Shown: one piece after another, positions 21,475 to 29,362 of the stretch
Numbering within the stretch: position 1 is the first letter of the stretch
Layout of the letters: every line of letters begins with the position of its first letter
From: an uncultured Ruminococcus sp.
Lineage (GTDB): Bacteria > Bacillota > Clostridia > Monoglobales > Monoglobaceae
Length of the DNA stretch: 64,000 nt
Direction: 5' to 3'
Assembly (NCBI GenBank): GCA_902766745.1
Contig: CACXES010000041.1
Span: 62,001-126,000, forward strand
Notes under the pieces: generated by a model
The model's database searches: none
What the model saw: the letters and a program-made list of their open reading frames with translations, nothing else
What the model was told of the DNA's origin: nothing
Position numbers and translations under genes: made by a program

Positions 21475-21508
21475 CAAAAAATGCGGAACGAAGTGTGCCG
21501 TTCCGCAT
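21475..21508 (-). terminator. Terminator of the long surface-protein/ldh operon
   Basis: ATGCGGAAC pairs with GTTCCGCAT over a 10-nt loop and is followed on the minus strand by six T, 22 bp after the ldh stop. It is the first clear terminator for the run that begins at 34114. Confidence 0.88.
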
Positions 21509-21530: not shown

Positions 21531-22478
21531 TCAGAAGCCGATTTCGGCGGACAGGCGTTTCATTGTTTCCGCACTGCTCCTGAGACCTTTCATCTCCTCC
21601 TCGGAGAAATCGATGGAAATTATCCTTTCAGCACCGCCCGAACCTACTACCGTCGGAACTGACAGGCATATGTCGGAAATCCCATATTCGCCTTCAAGCA
21701 AGCTTGAAACGGTCAGTATCGAATTTTCATCACCTATTATACTTTCAACGATTTTTCTAACCGCAAGGGCAATGGCGTAATAAGTTGACCCTTTCTTTTC
21801 GATAATTTCGTATGCCGCATTTTTGGTTTTGTTATAAAACTCATCACGGCAAATATTTAAGGAGCGGCAGTACCCTTCGGCAGAACAGTATTCGTCAACA
21901 CTCATTCCGGCAACACTCGTCGCCGACCATGCCGCAACCTCTGAATCGCCGTGCTCGCCGACGATATAGGTATGAACGTTTCTCGGATCGATATTCGCAT
22001 GCTCTCCGAGCAGGTACTTGAGTCTCGATGTGTCGAGCACCGTTCCGGACCCAATTACGTTATGCTTTGAAAACCCGGATATTTTATAGGTAATATACGT
22101 TAATATATCTACCGGGTTCGTAACAACCATCAATATCGTATCATCATGGCAATACTTCAATATATTATCGATAATATTTCGGAAGATATCTGCATTCCGT
22201 CGAAGCAAATCCGTTCTCTTTTCGCCCTCGCATTGACTTGCTCCTGCGGTTATAATTACCATATCGCTGCCTTTTATGTCACTGTAGCTGCCTGCGGTAA
22301 TTTTAACGGGACTGACAAAGCTGACGCCGTGGTTCATATCCATGGCATCGCCCTCCGCCTTATCGCGGTTTATATCTATCAGAACGATTTCCGAAACCAA
22401 AGAACTCAGCATAATGGTATATGCTACGGTTGCGCCGACGTTTCCGGCACCCACAACAGTTATTTTTCCTTTGAACAT
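21531..22478 (-). CDS. ldh: L-lactate dehydrogenase
   Basis: A 315-residue NAD-dependent enzyme reducing pyruvate to L-lactate, used to dispose of electrons in fermentation. It has a Rossmann N-terminus (VVGAGNVGAT, 8-17), the substrate-specificity loop ASQCEGEKRTDLL in which Gln82 marks lactate rather than malate dehydrogenase, Arg88, and the catalytic EHGDSE with His176. LDTSRLKYLLGEH is also typical. It is the last gene of the operon containing the surface proteins, 54 bp after the SLH gene, and has a weak AGAGGTG ribosome-binding site. Confidence 0.93.
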   Translation of the reverse strand: MFKGKITVVGAGNVGATVAYTIMLSSLVSEIVLIDINRDKAEGDAMDMNHGVSFVSPVKITAGSYSDIKGSDMVIITAGASQCEGEKRTDLLRRNADIFRNIIDNILKYCHDDTILMVVTNPVDILTYITYKISGFSKHNVIGSGTVLDTSRLKYLLGEHANIDPRNVHTYIVGEHGDSEVAAWSATSVAGMSVDEYCSAEGYCRSLNICRDEFYNKTKNAAYEIIEKKGSTYYAIALAVRKIVESIIGDENSILTVSSLLEGEYGISDICLSVPTVVGSGGAERIISIDFSEEEMKGLRSSAETMKRLSAEIGF

Positions 22479-22532: not shown

Positions 22533-25500
22533 TTATACGTTCTGAACGACAATTATATCGGTAGTTTCACCGTATGACATACTGACAAATACAAGATCCC
22601 CCGTGCGTATATCCGATGCATCCCCGACTTCTATCGTTTTTAATCTTTTATTCAGCACATATACTCTTGCCGTATCAAGTACAGCAGTTCGAAGCCTCTT
22701 GTTCCCGGCCTCCGCAGAAAATAAAATTTTATTGTTATATCTGCCGTATACCTTTGCAAAAGCAGTGTACAACTCACTGAAATAATTATTGTCGCTCAGT
22801 GCGCCGTAATCGCCCGTATTGCTTTCGTAAAGAATTTGATCTTCGATCATTTTCGAGGTGAGCAGCATTCTAAAGCTTTTGCAGTGGCTCTCATCATCGG
22901 AATACTGCTGTATTACCTCGCCGCCGTTAAATACGCAATTCCCGTTCGAGGTATCCCTCGGGGTATAACCGGGCAGCCATCCGTTTGTATCGTCAGTTCC
23001 GCCCTCGTTGTCAAAGTACACCGCTTCGTCTGTGCCTCCGGAGTAGACAGAAAGCTTAAGGCAGGCTTCGCCGTCTGCATTGTTGATCTGTGAACAGTCG
23101 CGGATAAAGGCTATGTTGTCGTAAGGCTTAACCTCTCTTCTGCGGCTTCCGTTAATATATATTACCGCCGCTCCGACCGTATACTCCTCCGATACGTTGT
23201 AAAGCTTGATGTTGTATTCAAAATCCGTATTCAGCCAGTTGCGGCTTTTTACTTTATATTCATTAATTTGCGTTTCATTCTCGGGTATAACAAAAACAGG
23301 AGTTTCAGGCCCAAGCCGGTATATTGACGCAAATACGCAAAGCTGTCCTCCGTAATACTTGCACGAGGAGGACGAGAAGCCTAATTCAAGCTCCGAAGCT
23401 TCGTCAGATGTCAATATCTCGGATATTCTGCCCTTGTTTATTTTCAAACGTATAAGCTGCGGCGGCAGCGAGGCTATATCCGCTGTTCTGTGCGCTGTGC
23501 CGTTAAGACGTGTACTTTCATCTGCGATATATATATCTGCAGCTCCGTCCTCTGAAATCAGGCGCAGAGCAACGCTCCTGCCGAAAGCGTCCGCAGTGTC
23601 CGGACTTTGTAAATACGCATATGTATATACCCCCTCTGCCTCAGCGGAAAAGGCTCGCCCATTTATATCCGTAAATAAGCAGACCTTCGCACCTATTTTC
23701 GGCTTATCTCCCATGTATCTGAAATCCTTTGCCAATTTAACGGAATAATCTTCGATCTTTATCTCATCATCATTGACGGACGAAAAAATTCCGTCTACAT
23801 ATGTATTTGTTATTGCGATACGCATCACTGTGCCATCCTCGCTTAGTGCGGCGGAAATTACATCGTTTCGTCTGACATACGCATCCTCAATTTCGCAATT
23901 TTCCCCGTACACGGATATATCAATCCTGTCCGCCGACTCCGGAATACTGAAAACACCTCCGTCAAGTCTGTTTGTCACACCCTTGCTCAATGGAGCTGAA
24001 TTTGCTGCTATATAATTTTTATAATCCCAAATAATAATGGTATCTGCGGAATTTCCTCCGTTTTTGATAAAACAGATGCTGCCCGAATTAATTTTCAATC
24101 CGTTGGTTGTGCCTATTCTATCCTTATATCTGCCATTGTACACAATGCGAGTGTTTGCAGTCACGTTCACGCTGCGAGGCTTATCATCGCCGCCGTCATA
24201 GTATATCCTTCCATCCTTTATATAAAGATATCGGTCTGCCGAAACTTCAAGGATTGTGCTGTGTTTAGGTTCGGCATATAAAAGCTTATCATCTTTTACA
24301 TACGCCTCGACATTTCTGCCGAGTAGTATGTCATAGTTATCCTTGCACTCGTAACGTATGCCATCGATTACGATTTCGGATTTATCGGCTATGATCTCGC
24401 TGACAATACTCATTCCGCCGACCGATGTTACAACACCGTCAACCGTATCAATTTCGTGATATGCGGCCAAAAGCGTTTCTCCGCGATTAAACTCGGAATT
24501 ATCACCGAACAGCGTTTGCCGAAACGGCTCCGCCTTCAAGGCACGGCATATCATCAAAGCGGCATCTCCCCTTGTGATAGGCACGTCACCGTCTTCGTTC
24601 CCGTTTAATAATCCGATTCTTGCTGCCACTGTGCGAACTCCGTTAGGATAGCCGCCAAGCTTTTCAATCTCCGAGGAATAGCCGAGTGCACAAACAAGCA
24701 TTTTCGCCGCTTCTGTATATGTCACGGGAGCATCGGGCTTGAATTGTCCTGTTTCGTCACCTTGTATTATTCCTTGCCCGTAAAGTGCGGCCACCGCCGC
24801 AGATGCCCAATGCCTCTGCGAAACATCCGAAAAGACCATTTCACCTCTACCGCTGTCGGTGAGACAGATAATTTTTGCAATAAGCTGTGCCAAAGCCGCA
24901 CGATTCAGCGTTTCCTCCGGCATAAATTCATATTCGTTTACGCCATCCGCAAATCCTAAAGCCTTAAGCATCGCCGCCGCACTCTCATAAGGTGTTCCGA
25001 TACAGTCGGCAAAGCCTATATCCGTTTTGTAAAACTCATAATCCACCGAAGCGAGCATAGGCGTCCAGGCTTCATCGAACTTATCGCTGTATATGATTTT
25101 AACATATTTATCTGACGGTAAAATGCTGCGCAGCGAATAAGTGACCGGAATCCACTTCCAGCTTTCGACCGAGCCGATTTTCATGTTGGGACGTATTTTG
25201 TGCCAATTTTCTCCATCCTCGGATGCCTCGAAATCAAAATGCGGAATGTCGGCTGTGTATCTGAAATATGTGTTAAATACCGGATACCGATCGGCTTCGA
25301 TTTTATATATAAGCCATTCTCGGGTATTTTCGCTGCGTCTTAGCATGGTGTGATCCTCGTCAAAAGCGTAGTAGTCCTCCTCCGGAACAGTGTAAGCATA
25401 TAAGCCGTCACTGTGGTCGATACAACGAGAAAAATCTGTACAGTCATCATAAACCTCAGGGATTAATCCGTTTTCTGCCGAAACACCTTCGTTCGCATAT

Positions 25501-25562
25501 ATACAAAAAGGCATCATAAGCATAATCGCAAGAATTGCCGCATATATTCGTTTTTTAGTCAT
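22533..25562 (-). CDS. Secreted SLH-domain surface protein, 1009 residues
   Basis: A signal peptide (1-23, ending near IYANEG) is followed by a discoidin-like or similar beta domain (about 38-178) that resembles a domain in the adjacent dockerin protein. Three SLH repeats follow near 183-233, 242-296 and 300-347 (for example VFSDVSQRHWASAAVAALYGQGIIQGD). SLH repeats bind secondary cell-wall polymers, so the protein should sit on the cell surface. The remaining 650 residues are beta-rich, contain no catalytic motif I know, and include DGVVTSVGGMSI- and RIVYNGRY-type stretches seen in other clostridial SLH proteins. It starts 11 bp after the dockerin gene, with AAGGGAG before the ATG, and is probably translated from the same mRNA. 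Confidence 0.8.
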   Translation of the reverse strand: MTKKRIYAAILAIMLMMPFCIYANEGVSAENGLIPEVYDDCTDFSRCIDHSDGLYAYTVPEEDYYAFDEDHTMLRRSENTREWLIYKIEADRYPVFNTYFRYTADIPHFDFEASEDGENWHKIRPNMKIGSVESWKWIPVTYSLRSILPSDKYVKIIYSDKFDEAWTPMLASVDYEFYKTDIGFADCIGTPYESAAAMLKALGFADGVNEYEFMPEETLNRAALAQLIAKIICLTDSGRGEMVFSDVSQRHWASAAVAALYGQGIIQGDETGQFKPDAPVTYTEAAKMLVCALGYSSEIEKLGGYPNGVRTVAARIGLLNGNEDGDVPITRGDAALMICRALKAEPFRQTLFGDNSEFNRGETLLAAYHEIDTVDGVVTSVGGMSIVSEIIADKSEIVIDGIRYECKDNYDILLGRNVEAYVKDDKLLYAEPKHSTILEVSADRYLYIKDGRIYYDGGDDKPRSVNVTANTRIVYNGRYKDRIGTTNGLKINSGSICFIKNGGNSADTIIIWDYKNYIAANSAPLSKGVTNRLDGGVFSIPESADRIDISVYGENCEIEDAYVRRNDVISAALSEDGTVMRIAITNTYVDGIFSSVNDDEIKIEDYSVKLAKDFRYMGDKPKIGAKVCLFTDINGRAFSAEAEGVYTYAYLQSPDTADAFGRSVALRLISEDGAADIYIADESTRLNGTAHRTADIASLPPQLIRLKINKGRISEILTSDEASELELGFSSSSCKYYGGQLCVFASIYRLGPETPVFVIPENETQINEYKVKSRNWLNTDFEYNIKLYNVSEEYTVGAAVIYINGSRRREVKPYDNIAFIRDCSQINNADGEACLKLSVYSGGTDEAVYFDNEGGTDDTNGWLPGYTPRDTSNGNCVFNGGEVIQQYSDDESHCKSFRMLLTSKMIEDQILYESNTGDYGALSDNNYFSELYTAFAKVYGRYNNKILFSAEAGNKRLRTAVLDTARVYVLNKRLKTIEVGDASDIRTGDLVFVSMSYGETTDIIVVQNV

Positions 25563-25573
25563 AGCATACTCCC

Positions 25574-26692
25574 TTAATCCTCGGCAGATGTCATGTATCT
25601 CGCAGCATACGCAAGGTCTATGATATCTATTACACCGTTTTTATCCGCATCACAAAGACGGTTGTTGTCGTCAGACGTCCTTCCGTAGTTTTCGATAATA
25701 AAGTCTATATCCCTTTGCGTAATTATGTTGTCTCCGTCCGTGTCGGCAGGCATAGACGCACAAAGTGTAAAAGTCTTTTCGGCAAATAAGTCACCGCTCT
25801 CCGCTCGGACGGTGACGGTGTCTCCGACAATCATATCCGGCGAAATAATCACCTTGCCGTCAGAGGATACTTCAACGCTTTCGGATTCACACACCCAGGT
25901 AACGGCCGCATCGATGTCATTTCCTATCTGATCTAAAATTCTGCCGCAAAGCGTGTATTCGTAAGGCTCATATATAGGTATGTACAGCTCATCTTTGCCA
26001 TCGATAATGATCTCAGATTCCCGAGGTGCTTCTGTATTTGCATACAGCCCAAGAAAATACGGATTCCACCAGTTCTGTAAATTGGCTTCTTCTCCCCAAA
26101 TGACCTTAACATATTTTATGCCGCTTATATTTTCCGCAGAGTAATCTATTCTCGTCCAACGATTTTCGTTCTCGGTAATGTTTATCGTAATATCGGCATC
26201 AATCCATGTTGCGCCGTCCTTTGAAAGCTCAATGCTCATAGGTGCCACGTCTGACGGCAGGTGACAGCTTGATGCGAAAATCTCTGAAACGTAGGGGATT
26301 TCAAATATTGCCCAAGCCTCTCCTATTGCTCCGTCACGGCGCATAATACACTCTGCGCCGTACATATTATATTTTTCTTCTTCCAGAACAGTATAGCTTT
26401 GAACATTGAATGCATCTGATGCCAATTCTGCCTTGTCCGCAAAAAAATCATATTTCTTTGCATCGACATTCGATTCAACATTGTCCTGTCCTTCATCCTT
26501 CGGCGGTTCTTTATCGTTATCGTTTTTATCCGATTCATACGCATCCGAAGGTGTTGAGGTATTCGCCTCACTCTCGGAAAAATCCGCATTAATATCCACA
26601 GTATTGATTTCCGTTTCCCCATCGGCAAATGCCGAAAGTGAAAGAAGTGCGACAAGTGTCACCATTATCAATACATTAATTTTCAACTTCAT
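25574..26692 (-). CDS. Secreted dockerin-domain protein
   Basis: A 372-residue exported protein: signal peptide (1-23), a Ser/Asp/Glu/Lys-rich linker (24-80), a beta domain (about 80-218) resembling that of the neighbouring SLH protein, an Ig-like domain (about 225-312), and a C-terminal dockerin (315-370). The dockerin has two EF-hand-like loops, DTDGDNIITQRD and DADKNGVIDIID, each with Asp at the calcium-binding positions 1, 3 and 12. No catalytic domain is visible. Its start overlaps the end of the cohesin gene by 17 bp; the ATG at 26690-26692 follows GGAGG, whereas the upstream GTG is poorly placed. The context strongly suggests that it docks onto the cohesin protein. Confidence 0.82.
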   Translation of the reverse strand: MKLKINVLIMVTLVALLSLSAFADGETEINTVDINADFSESEANTSTPSDAYESDKNDNDKEPPKDEGQDNVESNVDAKKYDFFADKAELASDAFNVQSYTVLEEEKYNMYGAECIMRRDGAIGEAWAIFEIPYVSEIFASSCHLPSDVAPMSIELSKDGATWIDADITINITENENRWTRIDYSAENISGIKYVKVIWGEEANLQNWWNPYFLGLYANTEAPRESEIIIDGKDELYIPIYEPYEYTLCGRILDQIGNDIDAAVTWVCESESVEVSSDGKVIISPDMIVGDTVTVRAESGDLFAEKTFTLCASMPADTDGDNIITQRDIDFIIENYGRTSDDNNRLCDADKNGVIDIIDLAYAARYMTSAED

Positions 26693-27908
26693 CTTCCGCA
26701 CCTCCGAAAAATCTGTTAAGCCTTGCCGTCATTGCCGCAGCCTCCGCACGGGTAAGCCCGTAACGGGGATTGAAGCACTTCATATCGTCTCCGCTTATCA
26801 GTCCGGCAGTGTATAGCACATCTATCGGCCATACGGCATAGTCAGAAATATCCGCTTCATCCTTGAAATTAATATTCTCTCTTACCGCCGAGAGAGTTGC
26901 TCCGCATGAGTCAAGACTTCTTTTAATTATTACTGCGGCATCCTCGCGCGATATTATGTCATCGGGGCGAAATAGACCATCGCTTCCGTTTACAATGTCG
27001 TGCGATGCCATAATTCTAACAGGGTCAAAGTACCAATCTCCATGCTTAACATCCGAAAAATCATATAATTCCGCACTGTTTTCCCGAAAATTACAAACTG
27101 CGCAGATAAGCTTGGTAAATTCAGCACGGGTGACATTTCTGTCAGGCATAAAGCTTCCGTCCTCATATCCGCAAATAACTCCGAGACGGACAAGCTCCTT
27201 TATATCGGAAAAAGCCCAGTGTTCGCTATCCACATCAAAAAAATCTGCCGCAGATATATTTGAATCGGTATCCTGTGCATCATTTTCCTGCGGTAGCACC
27301 GGCTTTTCTGCAGAAGGTGCTGCCGAAGATGTTACAGCTCCTCCGGCAAAAATTCCTCCGCTCGGTCTGCCTCCGCCTCCCGAACCCCCGCCTTTATTTG
27401 AGGAGGGCCTCTTTATATTTACTTCAAGCGTCGCCTTCGGCTCGCTGTGCATATACGTCATATCATCAAAAACAGCCGTGACGGATTTAACGGTCAATTT
27501 TGTTTTGCCGTCGCACTTTGCGGCAAATGTAACGGTACAAAGCTTTTTCGATTTATCCAAAGCATATTCACCCTGCGCCGAAGCTGCTATGCGCAGGCTT
27601 CCGCCGTCATTCATTTCGATTTTCAGCGAATTATCATCCGAAAAATCCGACTCAAAGCCCTTGTAGGATAATACGTCCTCGTTATATTCAACCAATGCTT
27701 CAAAAGCATAGACAGATGCCGCTTTGCTCAAAGCGATATCCGCATATACAATATCTCCGGTCATTATATCGTCAACAGGCAATTCTGCCGATGCCTGTAC
27801 ATCAAGCTGTGTTTCAACCGGCAGCGAAGGTATATCCTGCGCCGCCGCAGAACAGGAGATGAACATAAAACTCAGTAATCCGCAGAAAAACATCTTCATG
27901 CTCAACAT
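26676..27908 (-). CDS. Cell-surface anchor with cohesin domain and three SLH repeats
   Basis: A 410-residue exported protein. Signal peptide (1-24), cohesin domain (about 34-165; YADIALSKAASVYAFEALVEY, LCTVTFAAKCDGKTKLTV), a linker with a Gly-rich stretch and Pro/Ala/Ser (166-222), and three SLH repeats near 223-268, 283-332 and 347-398 (FSDIKELVRLGVICGYEDGSF, then FDPVRIMASHDIVNGSDGLF). This is the layout of the anchoring scaffoldins of cellulosomes: SLH holds the wall, cohesin holds a dockerin. The next gene encodes a dockerin. The ATG at 27906-27908 follows GGAGG; the longer ORF has no suitable site. It begins 20 bp after the aminopeptidase gene. Confidence 0.83.
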   Translation of the reverse strand: MLSMKMFFCGLLSFMFISCSAAAQDIPSLPVETQLDVQASAELPVDDIMTGDIVYADIALSKAASVYAFEALVEYNEDVLSYKGFESDFSDDNSLKIEMNDGGSLRIAASAQGEYALDKSKKLCTVTFAAKCDGKTKLTVKSVTAVFDDMTYMHSEPKATLEVNIKRPSSNKGGGSGGGGRPSGGIFAGGAVTSSAAPSAEKPVLPQENDAQDTDSNISAADFFDVDSEHWAFSDIKELVRLGVICGYEDGSFMPDRNVTRAEFTKLICAVCNFRENSAELYDFSDVKHGDWYFDPVRIMASHDIVNGSDGLFRPDDIISREDAAVIIKRSLDSCGATLSAVRENINFKDEADISDYAVWPIDVLYTAGLISGDDMKCFNPRYGLTRAEAAAMTARLNRFFGGAEDEVEN

Positions 27909-27928: not shown

Positions 27929-29335
27929 TCAGCAATTATGCTTGTAAAATTCTCTGTAGCCCTTGTAGGTCATAAAGATATCCAGCTTGCTTGCAAGCTC
28001 GTACGGCGAATGCATGGATAAAAGCGCAACGCCGGCATCAATTACATCCACATCAAGGTTTGCAACAAATTGCGCAATTGTTCCGCCGCCGCCCACATCA
28101 ACCTTTCCAAGCTCACCAATCTGCCACTTGACATCATTTTCGTTGAAAATTGCGCGGATTTTCGCTACAAGCTCCGCACTTGCATCACTTGCTCCGCCCT
28201 TACCGCGCGAGCCGGTGTATTTAGTCAAAGAAATACCGCCGCCGAAAATAGGACAATTACGTTTTTCACTGACATCGGGATAATTGGGGTCAAATGCCGC
28301 ACTGACATCCGCCGACAGACAGGTCGAATGGCTGAGTGCATCACGGAGAATTATATCATTATAATCCTTATGTGTCATGGCACAAAGCTTAGCCATCACA
28401 TTTTCAAAATGCCTCGACTGCATTCCGGTCGAACCCATTGAACCTACTTCTTCCTTATCAACAAGGAGACACACTGCCGTTTTTTGAGGCTTGTTAATGT
28501 CAGTTATGGCTCTAAGCGCAGTGTAAGCACACACTCTGTCATCCTGTCCGTAGCCGCCGATCATGCTTCTGTCAAAGCCGATATCACGCGCCGGGTAAGC
28601 CGGAACAACCTCTATCTCGCTGCTTAAAAGATCCTCCTCGCATATATCATACTTCTCATTCAAAAGCTTTAAGATATTGTACTTTACGCCGTCTTTTATA
28701 TCCTCGTCATCACAGCCTATATTACCGAGAATGATGTTCAGGCTCTCCCCCGAAATTGCCTCGTTCATCTTCTTTCCCATTTGTGCTGCCGCAAGATGCG
28801 GAAGAAGATCCGAGACACAGAATACGGGATCATCCTCTCCCTCGCCGATGACGATTTTTATTTGCGTTCCGTCAGCAAGAGCCGCAACTCCGTGAATCGC
28901 CAAAGGCATTGTTGTCCACTGATACTTCTTTATTCCGCCATAGTAATGGGTTTTAAAATATGCAATTCCCCCGTCTTCATAAAGCGGGTTAGGCTTTAGG
29001 TCAAGCCTGGGCGAGTCAATGTGTGCGCCGATAATGTTTACGCCGTCAGAGATATCGTCCGTTCCGATCACTGCAGCAATTACACCCTTGCCGCGGTTCA
29101 CGGTGAAAACCTTATCCCCGGCATTTAATACCGTCTTACTTTCAAGCGGAGAGAATCCGGCTTTAGTAAGCTCTCTGCAGGTACATTCGCAGAATTCGCG
29201 TTCGGTTTTTGCCTTGGTTATAAATTTTCTGTAATCCTCACAAAATGCAAATATTTCTTTCTTCTGCGCATCGGTCTGCTTTGCGAATGCATTTTCGTTA
29301 TTGTAGCTGAGTTCATTAATTTCCTTTTTTGACAT
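27929..29335 (-). CDS. apeA: M18-family zinc aminopeptidase
   Basis: A cytoplasmic aminopeptidase of about 468 residues that trims N-terminal residues from peptides. M18 signatures include NIIGAHIDSPRLDLKPNPLYEDGG (metal-binding His and Asp), CLLVDKEEVGSMGSTGMQS (catalytic Glu and metal Glu) and the C-terminal ALLSMHSPYELASKLD with the metal-binding His. Three in-frame starts exist. The ATG at 29335 gives the best distance from AAAGGA, while that at 29344 is too close, but the choice is not firm. It lies 27 bp after the transglycosylase gene in the long operon. Confidence 0.9.
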   Translation of the reverse strand: MSKKEINELSYNNENAFAKQTDAQKKEIFAFCEDYRKFITKAKTEREFCECTCRELTKAGFSPLESKTVLNAGDKVFTVNRGKGVIAAVIGTDDISDGVNIIGAHIDSPRLDLKPNPLYEDGGIAYFKTHYYGGIKKYQWTTMPLAIHGVAALADGTQIKIVIGEGEDDPVFCVSDLLPHLAAAQMGKKMNEAISGESLNIILGNIGCDDEDIKDGVKYNILKLLNEKYDICEEDLLSSEIEVVPAYPARDIGFDRSMIGGYGQDDRVCAYTALRAITDINKPQKTAVCLLVDKEEVGSMGSTGMQSRHFENVMAKLCAMTHKDYNDIILRDALSHSTCLSADVSAAFDPNYPDVSEKRNCPIFGGGISLTKYTGSRGKGGASDASAELVAKIRAIFNENDVKWQIGELGKVDVGGGGTIAQFVANLDVDVIDAGVALLSMHSPYELASKLDIFMTYKGYREFYKHNC

Positions 29336-29362
29336 TTCAATCATCCGTCCTTTCAATTATAA

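Follow-up and report, generated by a model that had tools for sequence, protein, structure and literature searches.

A window of 64,000 nucleotides from an uncultured Ruminococcus sp. (contig CACXES010000041.1 of assembly GCA_902766745.1, positions 62,001 to 126,000) contains three adjacent open reading frames, all on the minus strand, whose products are predicted to be secreted: a cohesin protein with surface-layer homology (SLH) repeats, a dockerin protein and a large SLH protein, referred to herein as the products of genes 1, 2 and 3 (Table 1). Cohesins and dockerins are usually regarded as parts for assembling enzymes. A Pfam scan found no catalytic domain in any of the three proteins, and comparison with related genomes revealed that the genes are kept together and that the first two have been joined into one chain in a single genus.

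The cohesin module of the gene 1 product scored 37.2 bits against the Pfam cohesin family (PF00963), above the cut-off of 24.1. When the cohesin alone was used for a profile search, the first match was the cohesin of Clostridium perfringens NagJ, and the modelled domain of an orthologue agreed in fold with the C. perfringens cohesin 2vo8 (template modelling (TM) score 0.80 by target). The same protein carries three SLH repeats, and the genome encodes one CsaB-type pyruvyl-transferase, the kind of gene associated with SLH anchoring; judged by these two features, the gene 1 product is predicted to be an SLH-anchored protein.

At the C-terminus of the gene 2 product, the calcium loops DTDGDNIITQRD and DADKNGVIDIID are both intact. 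The loop aspartates are invariant in the 12 dockerin orthologues that were aligned, and each of the two acidic loops is followed by a helix, as seen in the alignment and in the model. Since both loops are intact, the majority of the orthologues score above the Pfam cut-off or near it (e.g. 26.4 bits), and the helical hairpin of a dockerin is present in the model of an orthologous fused chain, we regard this region as a genuine dockerin rather than a chance similarity. Fold searches also returned matches to a phage phi29 head protein, which in the model would be explained by the resemblance of the Ig-like region to the phi29 BIG domain.

The N-terminal part of the gene 2 product has a counterpart in gene 3. 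A profile of gene 2 matched the N-terminal domain of the gene 3 product in 18/18 genomes, and the two copies in the window share 25% identity over 144 positions. In the model of the gene 3 product this domain is a beta-sandwich that matched the folds of carbohydrate-binding modules (CBMs), among them CBM35 (2w1w; TM-score 0.62 by target, probability 1.00), CBM6 (2cdp; 0.55) and CBM22. Pfam gave no match to a CBM family at the sequence level, and a profile search gave a marginal match to YeCBM32 (E = 0.09). From the profile matches and the models, the two N-terminal domains are homologous and resemble carbohydrate-binding modules in fold. Monoglobus is a pectin degrader within this gut family, and pectin was considered as a ligand on that ground and on that of the YeCBM32 match; because the genome has no PF00544 pectate lyase, we claim no ligand for these domains.

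The SLH region of gene 3 scored 53 bits in Pfam, with one stretch above the cut-off by itself, and the protein was modelled with a predicted local distance difference test (pLDDT) score of 74. Gene 3 is a single-copy orthologue, marked by its CBM-like N-terminus, within a large family of SLH paralogues. Proteins like that of gene 3 occur widely across the order, and the source genome holds about 18 paralogous two-gene cassettes (loci L093-L112), in which a protein with three C-terminal SLH repeats, often of about 550 residues, precedes an SLH protein of the gene 3 type with about 850-930 residues. Most of these cassettes lie beside large secreted proteins, and one lies beside a GH123 enzyme; the cassettes resemble pairs of surface proteins from polysaccharide-use loci. 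The gene 3 orthologue of one genome (G006; L085 3349-6468) is read in two frames with one in-frame TGA, and is possibly a pseudogene or an assembly error.

A sequence-only reading of this DNA had proposed a cohesin fixed to three SLH repeats, a C-terminal dockerin with two calcium loops and a large SLH protein, encoded side by side and free of enzymes. Its reading frames and positions were correct, and our profile searches, alignments and models bore out the domains that it assigned to each protein as well as the lack of catalytic domains. The homologous domain shared by the products of genes 2 and 3 was absent from its description.

Table 1. Features of the locus and its flanks (positions in the window; aa, amino acids).
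Feature	Position	Strand	Remarks
Gene 1	26676..27908	-	Predicted secreted anchor of cohesin, Gly-rich linker and three SLH repeats, 410 aa; ATG start, GGAGG Shine-Dalgarno sequence before ATG 27908; orthologues in 18 genomes
Cohesin module, gene 1	27456..27764	-	Residues 49-151, the Pfam span; 37.2 bits; model of an orthologue matches solved cohesins
Three SLH repeats, gene 1	26709..27236	-	Residues ~225-400; 107.9 bits in 3 stretches; match to Sap SLH domain
Gene 2	25574..26692	-	Dockerin protein, predicted to be secreted; start probably at ATG 26692; 17-base overlap with gene 1
Alternative start, gene 2	GTG 26701	-	Longest reading, 375 aa
CBM-like beta-sandwich, gene 2	26021..26449	-	Residues ~85-227; homologous to N-terminal domain of gene 3; orthologous domain modelled
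Ig-like (BIG-type) domain, gene 2	25757..26014	-	Residues ~230-315, directly before dockerin; AF2 model of orthologue
Dockerin, two EF-type calcium loops	25595..25747	-	Pfam 15.3 bits; alignment with invariant loop residues
Gene 3	22533..25562	-	Predicted secreted SLH protein, 1009 aa
CBM-like N-terminal domain, gene 3	25029..25460	-	Residues ~35-178; CBM35/CBM6/CBM22 folds; matched by profile of gene 2 domain
SLH region, gene 3	24528..25016	-	Residues ~183-345
C-terminal region, gene 3	22536..24485	-	Tandem small beta-barrels; weak OB-fold-like matches
M18 aminopeptidase gene	27929..29356	-	Directly upstream, gap of 20 bases; neighbour kept in relatives
Lactate/malate dehydrogenase gene	21531..22478	-	Downstream of gene 3
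Terminator-like hairpin	21481..21508	-	After dehydrogenase gene; 11 pairs and T-run; pattern match only

The arrangement of the three genes appears operon-like. A GGAGG motif at 26705-26701, inside the 3' end of gene 1, precedes ATG 26692, and because of this motif we consider that codon more probably the start of gene 2 than GTG 26701. Genes 2 and 3 are separated by 11 bases. A search for RNA families and tRNAs returned none in the window.

The source genome, assembled to 2.85 Mb in 166 contigs and 93% complete, falls into a group of genomes that bear the names Monoglobus spp., Candidatus Monoglobus merdigallinarum, Ructibacterium gallinarum, Candidatus Roslinia caecavium and uncultured gut Clostridia. 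From this grouping we infer the family name Monoglobaceae for the set; NCBI places Ructibacterium elsewhere. Orthologues of gene 2 were found in 18/38 Monoglobaceae genomes (14/15 of those of good quality), and a profile search found none in 13 genomes of sister families. These 18 genomes hold all three genes, gene 3 in its CBM-bearing form, at one site and in a constant order, which rules out an oddity unique to one assembly. Upstream, the flank coaE–SLT–M18 aminopeptidase is present wherever the contig reaches that far and the frame is resolved, while downstream the dehydrogenase gene adjoins gene 3 only in the source genome (G000), G037 and G019, in the last with a short stretch in between.

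Genes 1 and 2 are joined in every one of the 12 genomes of the genus that contains Monoglobus (g4), where they encode a single chain of about 780-840 residues, one of the 12 copies being cut by a contig end. The order along this chain is cohesin, Gly-rich linker, three SLH repeats, Pro/Thr/Glu-rich linker, CBM-like domain, Ig-like domain and dockerin. The remaining six genomes, from four other genera, have the two genes separate and adjacent. In a maximum-likelihood tree of gene 3, which took in 11 of the fused genomes and had paralogues as a distant outgroup, the fused genomes grouped together with support 100/100, and their clade lay nested within the split forms; on account of this nesting, a single derived fusion would be the simplest history. 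Within the fused clade the ratio of non-synonymous to synonymous substitution rates (dN/dS) was 0.14-0.22 for the cohesin, 0.08-0.29 for the dockerin and 0.23-0.51 for the Pro/Thr/Glu linker. The low ratios of both modules show that cohesin and dockerin have each stayed under purifying selection after the fusion. Sequencing or assembly artefacts were ruled out as the source of the fused chains by the 12 genomes, the single clade, the continuous frames and the purifying selection.

A fused orthologue (L115) was modelled from a 20-row alignment with a mean pLDDT of 78.6. Its cohesin, SLH, CBM-like, Ig-like and dockerin domains were confident and its two linkers disordered, and a fold search with the model returned the SLH domains of Sap and SpaA together with cohesins, the best being C. 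perfringens 2vo8. Since a fusion of this kind, in a Rosetta-stone type of argument, points to proteins that act together, the cohesin–SLH and dockerin proteins very probably cooperate on the cell surface. One natural fusion event thus supplies direct evolutionary evidence for which cohesin and dockerin proteins cooperate, evidence that normally comes from binding screens only. In Monoglobus genomes a gene for a 169-residue radical-SAM activase-like protein resembling NrdG usually separates the fused gene from gene 3 (L079-L085, L087, L089, L090, L092).

The pair in the window is not the only one in the source genome, in which we found 8 dockerin matches, 6 cohesin matches and at least 150 SLH repeats. 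A second enzyme-free cluster shares the contig with the window, from which it is 13.5 kb away (L015, G000:C41:38000-54000). It encodes a scaffoldin of 906 residues with two cohesins and a C-terminal dockerin (C41:43.4-46 kb), a protein of 328 residues with a cohesin and a copper-amine-oxidase-like domain, and an SLH protein of 562 residues with a possible cohesin-like N-terminus. At another locus (L020 911-7863, G000:C154), a cohesin–3×SLH anchor gene is followed by that for an S8 protease of 1799 residues with a C-terminal dockerin, apparently an anchor/client pair in which the client is an enzyme. This protease was the only dockerin protein of the source genome with a catalytic domain in a Pfam scan that covered all except two on cut contig ends. 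A cellulosome in the strict sense, with dockerin-bearing plant-wall enzymes on a multi-cohesin scaffoldin, was ruled out: the locus holds no enzyme, and few catalytic dockerin proteins were found in the genome. Across the Monoglobaceae genomes, a cohesin lies within 6 kb of 45/103 dockerins, whereas a rough calculation gives an expectation of about 2. Given this count and the two further clusters in the source genome, the pairing of neighbouring cohesin and dockerin genes is a general habit of the Monoglobaceae, with the window locus as its most conserved case found here. A second class of dockerin (LAGDIVKDNNINIYDLSAVVSYFG...) occurs on large secreted proteins (L018, L019, L017, L130-L132), with one weak beta-helix match, and some of their neighbours are SLH proteins (L131, L136).

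We propose that the locus specifies a small enzyme-free surface complex of the Monoglobaceae, a reading to which we give about an even chance. The three SLH repeats of the gene 1 product would grip a cell-wall polymer, leaving its single cohesin to face outward on the flexible Gly-rich linker. The gene 2 product would be a non-catalytic adaptor in which an Ig-like spacer separates a CBM-like domain from a dockerin; the dockerin would enter the gene 1 cohesin in a calcium-dependent manner and so display the CBM-like domain on the surface. The gene 3 product, with an SLH anchor of its own, would present its homologous copy of the CBM-like domain together with a long beta-rich region and would probably act as a co-receptor or as part of a layer. 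This scheme supposes that the proteins are secreted and anchored in vivo, that the CBM-like domains have a ligand, and that the complex is in contact with gene 3. The sequence-only reading had likewise suggested a surface complex in which the cohesin anchor holds the dockerin protein, possibly to present a binding domain, and its model is still the best-supported one. The functional linkage that it requires between genes 1 and 2 is supported by their strict co-occurrence, adjacency and overlap and by their fusion in one genus, and the CBM-like fold supports the presentation of a binding-type domain. The complex is further favoured by the frequency, well above chance, with which dockerin genes of the family lie close to cohesin genes, and by the cohesin–SLH anchor encoded beside the dockerin protease in the source genome.

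Several points weigh against our proposal. The window dockerin itself scored 15.3 bits against PF00404, under the Pfam cut-off of 22.9; the CBM match is one of fold, with modest TM-scores of 0.50-0.62 by target length; the overall predicted TM score (pTM) was 0.50; the interface between the gene 1 cohesin and the gene 2 dockerin is one that we infer; and the true partners could be among the further cohesins and dockerins that the genome encodes. In the fused form, moreover, the dockerin is already covalently joined to an SLH anchor, which would make an anchoring role redundant, yet the dockerin was kept. As the modules of the fused protein are conserved although it is already SLH-anchored, the dockerin does not serve merely to bring the gene 2 product to the surface, and in this respect the earlier model is not supported in its original form, since being held by the cohesin anchor cannot be the dockerin's whole role.

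Were the partners to lie elsewhere, gene 1 would act as a hub whose cohesin recruits other dockerin proteins, with the gene 2 dockerin using another cohesin, such as that of the two-cohesin scaffoldin, and genes 1 and 2 would be network neighbours rather than a closed pair. The numbers of cohesins and dockerins in the source genome, including the enzyme-free scaffoldin cluster and the dockerin protease, would allow this, as would a family genome (G002) that shows one cohesin and three dockerins, and cohesin type does not predict the partner (PMC3413522). However, genes 1-3 form a strictly conserved set while the other cohesin and dockerin genes differ from genome to genome, and the fusion joins precisely gene 1 and gene 2; we therefore regard a hub as somewhat unlikely. 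The retention of both modules after fusion, which is more than plain anchoring demands, would instead be accommodated if the cohesin of one surface molecule bound the dockerin of its neighbour. The fused chain, with its SLH repeats, cohesin, dockerin and long flexible linkers, would then suffice to build a head-to-tail polymer or lattice, and the split pair might form a one-to-one complex. Such lateral cross-linking is in our view unlikely, as the split gene 2 product, with one dockerin and lacking a cohesin, could not chain alone, an intramolecular clasp would fit the fused form equally well, and the polymers are conjecture. It is similarly improbable that the Monoglobaceae possess a core enzyme-free cohesin–dockerin system whose anchor and adaptor, once fused, self-assemble into a calcium-dependent, lectin-displaying surface lattice, with the two modules serving as cross-links of the S-layer and not as enzyme holders. 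Finally, the cohesin- and dockerin-type folds could be ordinary structural domains of surface adhesins that have lost pair binding. Several members do score near or under the Pfam cut-offs, but the invariant calcium-loop aspartates and the purifying selection on both modules make this very unlikely.

If the anchor–adaptor complex that we favour is correct, the cohesin–dockerin set here would be a conserved non-catalytic surface module, in contrast to the usual role of these domains in enzyme assembly. The existence of split and fused versions would also allow cohesin–dockerin contacts to be tested as anchors versus cross-links of a bacterial surface layer.

The sequence-only reading had held, as far as it could tell, that this is not a described system, which is only partly right. 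In a literature search that did not cover the M. pectinilyticus genome paper (Kim et al. 2019), we found no paper linking Monoglobus or the Monoglobaceae to such proteins; in the wider literature, however, cohesin–SLH anchors, anchors with both cohesin and dockerin, and non-cellulosomal pairs are known. A single cohesin followed by SLH repeats, as in gene 1, is found in SdbA of Clostridium thermocellum and ScaF of Acetivibrio cellulolyticus (PMC3413522), but these belong to many-enzyme cellulosomes and carry type II cohesins, whereas the gene 1 cohesin is nearest by profile to the non-cellulosomal cohesins of C. perfringens. ScaK of A. cellulolyticus combines SLH, cohesin and dockerin modules in one anchored chain (PMC3413522), as does the fused Monoglobus protein; it differs in having two cohesins and two dockerins within a full cellulosome system, and the text consulted describes no split/fused series. 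OlpC/ScaG, with a single cohesin and a copper-amine-oxidase-like domain (PMC3413522), shares the architecture of the 328-residue protein outside the window locus.

The closest solved relatives by profile and fold, the cohesins of C. perfringens NagJ and NanJ (PDB 2jh2, 2ozn, 2vo8), likewise serve outside plant-fibre degradation, but lie inside secreted glycoside hydrolases, whereas in the present locus neither partner is catalytic and one is predicted to be SLH-anchored. In anaerobic methanotrophic (ANME) archaea, cohesin–dockerin sets, some with S-layer domains, have been proposed to fix non-cellulolytic proteins on the cell surface (PMC9012536). These resemble our locus in non-cellulolytic surface attachment, but they are archaeal and vary by species, in contrast to a set of three genes conserved within a single bacterial family. 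The separate architectures thus have precedents, and the uncommon feature of the Monoglobaceae locus appears to be its series from split to fused forms.

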